Assembly (NCBI GenBank): GCA_937873445.1
Contig: CALMWF010000043.1
Span: 1-64,000 of the forward strand
Direction of reading: 5' to 3'
Source of the DNA: an uncultured Alphaproteobacteria bacterium
GTDB lineage: Bacteria > Pseudomonadota > Alphaproteobacteria > Rhizobiales > Aestuariivirgaceae
Length of the DNA stretch: 64,000 nucleotides
Part shown: positions 35,407 through 38,090 of the stretch, piece after piece
Numbering within the stretch: position 1 is the first letter of the stretch
Layout: each line of letters begins with the position of its first letter
Notes under the pieces: generated by a model
Databases searched by the model: none
Seen by the model: the letters and a program-made list of their open reading frames with translations, nothing else
Told to the model about the DNA's origin: nothing
Translations under genes and position numbers: made by a program

Positions 35407-36204
35407 TTATTTTTGCTGCATGACGGCAATGGCCTCATCGAGCAGGGCCTGTGACCCCGCCGTGATGATGTTGCCGCCCTGGGCCGGGTCATGGCCCGAC
35501 CAGCTGCCGACCACGCCGCCCGCCCCGGTGATGATGGGAATGAGGGCGCCGATGTCAAAGGCCTGGAGGCCCGCATCCATGGCGATGTCGAGATGGCCCG
35601 CCGCCATCAGGCAGAAGAAATAGGCATCACCGCCATAGCGCATGAGCTTGCAGGCGCGGCGCAGGGCCTGAAAGCCCGCGGCATCCTCCGGCGTGCGGTA
35701 GAGCTCGGGGGCGGTGGTGCCGGCGGCGGCATTTTTCAGGGTCACGCCGGTGCGGGTCTTCAGGGGGGTTGCCGTGCCGTGGCGGTGCAGCCAGGCGCCC
35801 TCCGGCGTGCCCATGAAGCATTCACCCACATGGGGCTGGTTCATGACGCCAATAACCGGGCGGCCGTCATGGTAGAGGGCAATGAGGGTGGCCCAGCTTG
35901 GCATGCCGATCATGAAGGCGCGGGTGCCGTCCACCGGGTCCAGAACCCAGGTGAAGGGGCTGCGGCCTTCCTTCTCGCCAAATTCCTCGCCGATGATGCC
36001 GTGATCGGGGTAACGCTCGGCAATGGCGGCGCGCAGGGCGCGCTCACCGGCCCGGTCGCCCTCGGTCACGGGGTCAAACCCGGCCGTGCCGGCCTGCTTG
36101 TTGTCCACCACCAGAGGTTGCCGGAACCAAGGCAGAATGGCTGCGGCGGAGACCTCCGCCAGATGCAGGGCAAAACCGGAAAGTTCAGACCAGTCGGGAG
36201 TCAT
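35407..36204 (-). CDS. hisN: inositol-monophosphatase-family histidinol-phosphatase
   Basis: A 265-residue Mg2+-dependent phosphatase. The metal site is visible as GEEFG, DPVDGTRAF and, later, DAGLQAFDIGALIPII. Rhizobial proteins with this GEEFGEKEG pattern are the HisN histidinol-phosphate phosphatase, the penultimate histidine step; other inositol phosphatase-like substrates cannot be excluded. ATG 36204 is preceded by GAGG. No other his genes are nearby. It is convergent with dksA. Confidence 0.85.
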   Translation of the reverse strand: MTPDWSELSGFALHLAEVSAAAILPWFRQPLVVDNKQAGTAGFDPVTEGDRAGERALRAAIAERYPDHGIIGEEFGEKEGRSPFTWVLDPVDGTRAFMIGMPSWATLIALYHDGRPVIGVMNQPHVGECFMGTPEGAWLHRHGTATPLKTRTGVTLKNAAAGTTAPELYRTPEDAAGFQALRRACKLMRYGGDAYFFCLMAAGHLDIAMDAGLQAFDIGALIPIITGAGGVVGSWSGHDPAQGGNIITAGSQALLDEAIAVMQQK

Positions 36205-36431
36205 GGGAGCCTCGAAATCCTCCCAGATAGAGCATAAAGCGGCCAAGGGGGCCAGTGGGCCTGTTGCGCCGCCACAGGTTGGGAAGTTTTGCCCGGTTAC
36301 AAACTATCCAAAGCTATGCATTTCCCGCAACCCTGTCGGTCAGGCTCCGGGCTCTATTAAAAAACTGTGTGATATCAATGATCTATAATTTCGCTGCCAA
36401 AGTGTCGCGGAATTTTCCCGGCCCGGCGGCC

Positions 36432-36460
36432 TTGCACGGCTCATGGTGCAGTGCCATATG
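36432..36460 (+). promoter_or_regulatory. sigma-70-type promoter of the small RNA
   Basis: TTGCAC (-35, 36432-36437), a 17-bp spacer and CATATG (-10, 36455-36460). Predicted transcription start is near 36466, just ahead of the first hairpin of the small RNA. Confidence 0.5.
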
Positions 36461-36465
36461 AACGG

Positions 36466-36563
36466 CGTGAGACGAAAACATCTGGTTTTCCTCTCGCAGC
36501 CCTTCTTGGGCGTTTCCTCCCTAGACTTGGGCCATCAGCGTCAGCTGCATGGCCCTTTTTCTT
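36466..36563 (+). ncRNA. mmgR: probable trans-acting small RNA, alpha-r8/MmgR family
   Basis: About 98 nt with three hairpins. The first pairs GAG and GAAAAC with GTTTTC and CTC (36469-36495). The second is GCCCTTCTTGGGC (36499-36511). Next comes the single-stranded decamer TTTCCTCCCT (36513-36522), an anti-Shine-Dalgarno-like sequence. The last is a strong terminator hairpin with a T-tract. The exposed UUUCCUCCCU between hairpins is, as I recall, the conserved signature of alpha-r8 RNAs; Sinorhizobium MmgR limits polyhydroxybutyrate storage and binds Hfq. It occupies the 361-bp gap between hisN and the N-formylglutamate amidohydrolase gene; I see nothing else in the left part of that gap. 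Confidence 0.65.
36529..36563 (+). terminator. terminator of the small RNA
   Basis: GGGCCAT (36529-36535) pairs with ATGGCCC (36549-36555), extended inwards by CAGC/GCTG with one bulged C, then TTTTTCTT. No coding gene on this strand ends here, which supports a short non-coding transcript. Confidence 0.85.
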
Positions 36564-36565
36564 GC

Positions 36566-37423
36566 CTATTCGGCGGCCCGGCGCTGCGGTTGCAGCAGGG
36601 CCGGAAGATCCGCCAGAAAATCCCGGAAGCTGCGGGTCAGGCGCTGGGCAATCAGATCAAAGTCGGGCCGTTTCTCCAGCCGCCGTTCATTCATGTAGAG
36701 ACCCCGGTTGACCTCGATCTGCAGGGCATGGCGGCACAGCGAAGGCTGGCCGTGGGACTGGGTGATGAAGCCGCCGGCATAGGGCTGGTTGCGGGCCACT
36801 GAAAAGCCCGCGGCGCGCAGGCTGTCGGCCAGGGCCTGGGCCAGGCCCCGGTCACAGGAACTGCCGTGCCGGTCGCCCAGCACAATGTCGGCGACGCGGT
36901 CATCGCCCGAGGGCATGGAATGGCAATCAACCAGCAGGCCCGCACCAAATCGCCTGACGGTGCGGCTGACCAGCTCGTCGAGGCGGCGATGATAGGGGCG
37001 ATACCAGCGTTCAATACGGGCTTCGGCCTCGGCAAAGGAAAGCCGGGCGCGGCAGATCTCGCCACCATCGCCGGCCAGGCGCGGCAGGGTGCCAAGCCCC
37101 GCCAGCACGCGCGGGCTGTCGGTGACGACATAGCCGGGCAGGGGGCCGTCAAACATGCGCGGGTCCAGTTCCCAGGGTTCGCGGTTCAAATCCACCACGG
37201 CGCGGGAAATCTCCGCCGCCAGCAGCGGCGCGCCCAGGGCCGGGGCAAAGCCGAACAGCTCATCAATGGCGAAATCCTCGGAGCGGCGCAGGTCAAGGGC
37301 CGAAAGCCGGGTGGTGGCAAGGAAGGATTCGGGAAAGAGGTGGCCGCTATGGGGCGAGTTGAACACCGCCGGCGTGGTCCAGCGGCGGGGCAGCAGCAGT
37401 TGATATCCGGCCTGGTCGGTCAT
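36566..37423 (-). CDS. N-formylglutamate amidohydrolase family protein
   Basis: A 285-residue FGase-family enzyme that would release formate from N-formyl-L-glutamate. Family motifs are NSPHSGHLFP near residue 20, DLRRSEDFAIDELF, and LVDCHSMPSGDD. The histidine-utilisation (hut) genes that would supply its substrate are absent from the window, so the physiological substrate may differ. ATG 37423 is the start that begins at the conserved region. Its stop lies directly beside the small RNA terminator on the opposite strand. Confidence 0.88.
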   Translation of the reverse strand: MTDQAGYQLLLPRRWTTPAVFNSPHSGHLFPESFLATTRLSALDLRRSEDFAIDELFGFAPALGAPLLAAEISRAVVDLNREPWELDPRMFDGPLPGYVVTDSPRVLAGLGTLPRLAGDGGEICRARLSFAEAEARIERWYRPYHRRLDELVSRTVRRFGAGLLVDCHSMPSGDDRVADIVLGDRHGSSCDRGLAQALADSLRAAGFSVARNQPYAGGFITQSHGQPSLCRHALQIEVNRGLYMNERRLEKRPDFDLIAQRLTRSFRDFLADLPALLQPQRRAAE

Positions 37424-37579
37424 GGGCGGTCTCTGCCCCGGAGTATTGACGGGCCAGCAGAAACTGTCCACACCTCAGGACGGTTTGGCAATTTCACAGC
37501 CTGTTTACTCCTTGGCCGCTAGGATGCGTGCTTTGAAGGGCAGGCTGAGATGACCGCAGGCAGTGCTTCGAGTGTGGCC

Positions 37580-37939
37580 ATGGCAAAAATCCTTCTGGCG
37601 GAAGACGATGACGACATGCGGCGCTTTCTGGTGAAGGCGCTGGAAAAGGCGGGCCATACGGTCACCGCCTTTGCCGAAGGCGCGTCCGCCTTTGAGGAAA
37701 TCAAGCAGTCGGCCTTCGACCTGCTGCTCACCGACATTGTCATGCCGGAAATGGACGGCATTGAACTGGCGCGGCGGGCCTCGGAACTCGATCCGGCCCT
37801 GAAGATCATGTTCATCACCGGCTTTGCCGCCGTGGCGCTGAACCCCGATTCCAAGGCCCCCAAGGAGGCCAAGGTCCTGTCCAAGCCCTTCCACTTGCGC
37901 GATCTGGTGGCCGAGGTGGACCGGATGATGGCGGCCTGA
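37580..37939 (+). CDS. cpdR: single-domain response regulator CpdR
   Basis: A 119-residue stand-alone receiver domain. The acidic pocket is EDDDD (residues 8-12), the phosphoacceptor Asp52 lies in LLLTDIVMPEMDG, and the conserved lysine is in LSKPFHL. The last part has the CpdR pattern. In Caulobacter and rhizobia unphosphorylated CpdR primes ClpXP for degradation of cell-cycle factors and is phosphorylated through the CckA-ChpT relay. ATG 37580 is chosen over 37550 because it begins the domain and is preceded by GAGTGTGG. Confidence 0.93.
   Translation: MAKILLAEDDDDMRRFLVKALEKAGHTVTAFAEGASAFEEIKQSAFDLLLTDIVMPEMDGIELARRASELDPALKIMFITGFAAVALNPDSKAPKEAKVLSKPFHLRDLVAEVDRMMAA

Positions 37940-38015: not shown

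Positions 38016-38090
<75 letters not shown>

Follow-up and report, generated by a model that had tools for sequence, protein, structure and literature searches.

An alpha-r8/MmgR small RNA gene with a putative PhaR-type operator next to an N-formylglutamate amidohydrolase-family gene in an uncultured alphaproteobacterium

The stretch of DNA analysed here (the window; 64,000 nucleotides) contains, at 36466-36563 of its forward strand, what the evidence supports as a small RNA gene of the MmgR (alpha-r8) family, a family already known across the alphaproteobacteria. In our opinion, the product is probably (roughly 0.85) a trans-acting and likely Hfq-dependent sRNA, which is controlled by PhaR, blocks translation of its targets and limits polyhydroxybutyrate (PHB) storage. 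Computation established the family identity and the conservation of promoter, hairpins and operator, and located hfq, phaR, phaC and phasin genes in the genome. The gene is ordinary, a correctly recognised sRNA of a known family with a conserved regulatory site and testable target predictions, and adds one more member to a widespread group. The features are as follows.

36431-36436, forward strand: -35 element (CTTGCA), with a conserved 17-nt spacing to the -10 element
36447-36455, forward strand: putative PhaR (AniA)-type operator TGCAGTGCC, overlapping the -10 element and agreeing with YGCRNYGCR at 8 of 9 positions
36454-36459, forward strand: -10 element (CCATAT), from conservation in 21 loci
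36466-36563, forward strand: alpha-r8/MmgR small RNA, about 98 nt between its two predicted ends (fold z -5.8; RF00519 match at 36492-36569)
36467-36497, forward strand: 5' hairpin SL1, mostly outside the Rfam model with its last few bases inside, from fold comparison
36499-36511, forward strand: hairpin SL2 (GCCC-UUCUU-GGGC), from the Rfam match and folds
36513-36522, forward strand: single-stranded anti-Shine-Dalgarno seed UUUCCUCCCU (DNA form TTTCCTCCCT), from the fold and RF00519 loci
36529-36563, forward strand: intrinsic terminator, from the fold, with a bulged stem (36529-36555) and a U-rich tail (36556-36563, TTTTTCTT)
35407-36246, reverse strand: hisN-like histidinol-phosphatase gene, divergent from the sRNA and belonging to the inositol monophosphatase family, start codon uncertain (TIGR02067, PF00459)
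36566-37471, reverse strand: FGase-family (N-formylglutamate amidohydrolase) gene, convergent with the sRNA, start codon uncertain (PF05013, E 8.7e-72)
37550-37939, forward strand: cpdR response regulator gene, start codon uncertain (NF046022, 204 bits, cut-off 180)

The whole window was scanned with Rfam 15, in which RF00519 (suhB, now described as mmgR) is the alpha-r8 family. Two matches exceeded the gathering score, one to a tRNA (38016-38087) and the other to RF00519, at 36492-36569 on the forward strand. The RF00519 match spans the full model (positions 1-77 of 77) and scores 64 bits, where 41 would suffice as gathering score (E 7.1e-11). A reading of the sequence alone had proposed the alpha-r8/MmgR identity, and the covariance-model check bears it out. 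The source genome (2.58 Mb in 47 contigs, 98% complete) has a single RF00519 match. Among 61 genomes, comprising the source genome and 60 relatives, 53 have a match at E <= 1e-3 and 48 have one above the cut-off; the search filters were strict and only a limited number of candidates was scored, so misses are possible. Thirty-three of the 37 same-genus genomes have a match. In the four for which the strictly filtered RF00519 search returned none (G010, G013, G019 and G033), the sRNA may have been lost, may fall into gaps of the assembly or may have been missed by the filters; three of these genomes are 96-99% complete, and phaC and phaR were found in all four. Tandem alpha-r8 copies occur in other families of the order (L006 and L012; G037, G054, G058 and G060), and in L006 and L012 the upstream sequences differ between the two copies.

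The seed is the most constant part of the element. TTTCCTCCCT occurs once in the window (0.08 copies expected; 8 of 100 shuffles contain one) and is exact in 30 of 30 RF00519 loci (L001-L030), which represent the best-scoring 30 of the 53 genomes with a match. It is unpaired in the predicted fold of 36466-36563, just as the sequence-only reading had it, and in 18 of 21 folds of related sequences. The unpaired UUUCCUCCCU after a weak hairpin, by which the alpha-r8 family is recognised, is found at 36513-36522. The complete RNA folds at -43.0 kcal/mol (z -5.8), a value reached by none of 200 dinucleotide shuffles. The two hairpins claimed earlier are present, but their number is not two: the fold gives three, the extra one being SL1, most of which falls outside the Rfam model, so that the predicted RNA extends to about 98 nt. 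The strong terminator claimed earlier is recovered by the fold, although a simple terminator scan did not list the bulged structure at 36529-36563. SL1 recurs in relatives beyond Sinorhizobium. It forms 8-13 pairs in all 21 folded sequences, and its segment has a median z of -4.2 against mononucleotide shuffles (weakest -1.9). Each of its six outer pairs takes two to six standard pair types across the 21 sequences; it should be noted that the pairs, numbered from the 3' side, come from each sequence's own fold, so that the pairs are bound to be standard ones and the tally does not amount to a formal covariation test.

That the RNA has a promoter of its own had been proposed as well, and here conservation argues in favour, while an E. 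coli-type promoter scan found none at the locus. The comparison set comprised 20 same-genus loci and L036, probably a member of the genus; the script admitted only loci that have CTTG and the exact decamer. CTTG-N17-CCATAT or CTTG-N17-CCAAAT is present in 19 of the 21 loci. The -10 variants are CCATAT (13 loci), CCAAAT (6), CCAATT (1) and TCAAAT (1); the last belongs to L002, which at 16 nt is also the only locus to deviate from the 17-nt spacing between the end of the CTTG hexamer and the -10 element (20 of 21). Compared with what we take to be the alphaproteobacterial consensus, CTTGAC-N17-CTATAT, the window promoter agrees at 9 of 12 positions, and 44 of 2000 mononucleotide shuffles are as good. 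The 5' end predicted earlier near 36466 agrees with the position of the conserved promoter. The joint pattern of promoter, operator and decamer is found in 30 of 37 same-genus genomes and in 0 of 24 others; its reversed control matched 0 genomes.

The motif core YGCRNYGCR has been reported for PhaR, and in S. meliloti this protein binds the promoter of mmgR (PMC12542648), at a site described as lying between the -35 and -10 elements (PMC8401924, PMC12542648). A similar putative site is present here, with C in place of the R that closes the published consensus. In the genus the operator ends in this C, which is also part of the -10 element. The motif was counted both with and without its last position, within a 72-nt promoter zone and with the related loci being non-independent observations; L028, for which too little upstream sequence was available, does not enter the promoter counts. 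YGCRNYGC is present in 20 of 21 genus loci (control windows 9.7%), in 9 of 11 promoters from other families of the order (10.8%) and in 52 of 60 promoters of FGase loci (11.2%). The full YGCRNYGCR is found in 0 of 21 genus promoter zones (control windows 7.2%), 9 of 11 other-family promoters (3.8%) and 52 of 60 FGase loci (4.8%). Thus, the operator core, like SL1, recurs in relatives beyond Sinorhizobium, and a phaR gene is present in the source genome.

The neighbours named in the sequence-only reading, FGase and cpdR, are confirmed by their PF05013 and NF046022 matches. The FGase gene ends 2 nt beyond the sRNA tail; against NCBIfam hutG it scores 108 bits, below the cut-off of 278.75. The hisN-like gene scores 275 bits, as printed, with TIGR02067 (cut-off 275.15), and a tRNA-Val gene also lies in the neighbourhood. 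A search of named genomes with the FGase protein gave at least 571 confirmed relatives, the best 80 of which were kept; nearly all are from Rhizobium, Methylobacterium, Mesorhizobium and other Hyphomicrobiales, and the closest named record among the matches listed is that of an uncultured alphaproteobacterium (L036, 71% identical). Exact TTTCCTCCCT is present at 61 of these best 80 loci, always downstream of FGase and on the opposite strand, which agrees with the family synteny proposed earlier; because the loci were found through FGase, the linkage is favoured in this set. For 58 of the 61, no more than 300 nt separate the decamer from the end of the matched FGase stretch; in the others the distance is 328, 713 and 1183 nt. 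In the stretches searched at the other 19 loci (L039, L041, L044 and 16 more, largely Methylobacterium), neither the decamer nor an RF00519 match was found; the sRNA may lie elsewhere in those genomes. Judged from these loci, FGase adjacency is the usual place of the family, and FGase synteny in most species with alpha-r8 is also reported in PMC12559287.

MmgR of S. meliloti and the present sRNA belong to the same family model, RF00519. MmgR is described as having three stem-loops in 77 nt (PMC7143759), so that the stem-loop plan found here is known and only the length differs, about 98 nt being predicted here owing to a longer 5' hairpin. The original RF00519 description, the suhB RNA motif of 2005, presents an independent RNA with a putative promoter and terminator, encoded on the strand opposite suhB, and states that the motif has no tie to specific neighbours (PMC1273637), in contrast to the strong FGase linkage here. 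Caulobacter crescentus has four alpha-R8 copies, SisA-D, against a single copy here; they contain the same decamer, and SisA also adjoins FGase (PMC12559287). SisA represses CCNA_03574 through this decamer, as confirmed by a compensatory mutation (PMC12559287); in the papers cited here, SisA is the family member for which base-paired targets are described. S. meliloti MmgR limits PHB accumulation and affects phasins; PMC8401924 allows for either a direct or an indirect effect on the phasin mRNAs, and according to PMC7143759 and PMC12559287 no direct target of MmgR was known.

The mechanism that we favour combines these elements, with transcription, Hfq binding, PhaR repression and targets being what we infer. 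The sRNA would be transcribed from its own CTTG-N17-CCATAT promoter, with the PhaR operator beside and over the -10 element. When PHB is absent, free PhaR would repress the gene; once PHB granules titrate PhaR, the sRNA would accumulate. With Hfq, its exposed UUUCCUCCCU would then pair to target mRNAs at their purine-rich Shine-Dalgarno regions, blocking translation and thereby limiting PHB storage and tuning carbon use. The source genome encodes hfq, phaC (PHB synthase), phaR and two phasin genes, the identities of phaC and phaR having been confirmed by a further check, and because the last three are present a link between MmgR and PHB is plausible in this organism.

Concrete candidate targets can be named, headed by phaC, the gene to which its role in PHB synthesis had drawn attention at the outset. 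The phaC start region and the seed form a duplex of -20.0 kcal/mol, the strongest among the start regions tested, in which the seed and the following GACUU make 9 + 5 bp with AAGUCCCCAGGGAGGAG just before the start codon. A genome-wide search of ATG starts found AGGGAGGA 3-9 nt before the ATG at nine places (reversed control 0), two of which lead into short frames, of 58 and 48 aa; apart from phaC, the remaining eight start regions pair with the seed at -15.4 to -18.1 kcal/mol. It should be noted that phaC does not stand alone, since a start region with GGGGAGGAAA (L116), outside the AGGGAGGA pattern and presumably PutA-like as judged by eye, reaches -19.3 kcal/mol. By comparison, 43 gene-like starts of the window, picked with a simple rule, reach -15.9 at best, with a median of -9.2; pairing is weak for the phasin start regions (-9.4 and -6.2 kcal/mol), although phasins are affected by MmgR in S. 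meliloti, and phaR gives -11.9. Energies of this order are to a large extent accounted for by a purine-rich Shine-Dalgarno sequence as such.

A different balance of targets has to be weighed: the sRNA may act, like SisA, mainly on uptake and carbon-catabolism genes instead of on PHB storage, a reading that we regard as a serious contender, somewhat short of an even chance. Besides the PutA-like gene, well-pairing starts include those of L172 (-15.4) and L173 (-16.5), which by eye we take to be a probable propionyl/acetyl-CoA synthetase and a PreA-like protein, respectively. Moreover, TonB-dependent receptors are reported to be among the genes that SisA represses by means of this seed (PMC12559287). 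The PhaR-type operator, together with the phaC, phaR and phasin genes, nevertheless argues for the PHB link, and phaC is the start region with the strongest pairing among those tested.

The location of the element could also suggest a cis-antisense or convergent-terminator device for FGase, with the tail so close to the FGase stop codon and convergence so common among the FGase loci. We consider such a device very improbable: the decamer is invariant while the FGase-proximal end is not, the distance to FGase varies, many related genomes have further RF00519 matches elsewhere, and SisA is described as acting in trans (PMC12559287). The cis-antisense reading and, analogously, that of a cis-leader were rejected on the grounds of the element's own promoter and terminator, the variable distance and the matches elsewhere. 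It is scarcely credible that the locus is a decayed or silent copy, as this single-copy gene has an intact promoter, hairpins, seed and terminator, each of them conserved.

Returning to phaC under the PHB-limiting reading, a real pairing would explain how an MmgR-type RNA restrains PHB and would provide the family with a direct PHB target. Repression of phaC would moreover complete a loop: as granules titrate PhaR, its hold on the sRNA is lifted, and PHB synthase is in turn blocked by the sRNA. Of the 52 relatives with a phaC match, stretches from 40 were used (29 of the same genus); their start codons were guessed by script and many are unsure, contig ends truncate the stretches of L133, L150, L152 and L159, which probably have no start, and the reading frame chosen for G002, G028 and G031 looks wrong. 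AGGGAGGA occurs in 0 of these 40 stretches. Within the genus, only G014 (-14.1, likely start) and G016 (-18.0, at a GTG inside the gene) reach -14 kcal/mol; outside it, G046 (-15.9), G057 (-15.1) and G040 (-14.4) do so, with unsure starts. G014 and L036 appear to be one and the same genome, as contig number, position and score coincide. Given the absence of AGGGAGGA from the 40 and the few comparable pairings, the phaC site is non-conserved. This absence and the near-equal pairing of the PutA-like start slightly lower the odds of direct phaC repression, which on these duplex predictions we judge unlikely. In this species phaC is the best-pairing candidate among the start regions tested, yet a non-conserved one, and a lead only.

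Exact complements of the seed, GGGAGGAAA, were also considered as a target set and rejected, as they are not enriched: the genome has 11 such sites, one of them the sRNA's own, and the reversed control has 19. Of the ten other sites, three (L116, L123 and L117) have a start codon in the examined zone. By eye, L123 is presumably MsrB-like. The L117 site, which by eye looks like RNase P RNA from a motif in it, was set aside; it looks like a chance match to the seed complement. L124 and L126 share an identical 60-nt stretch around GGGAGGAAA, perhaps a repeated element.
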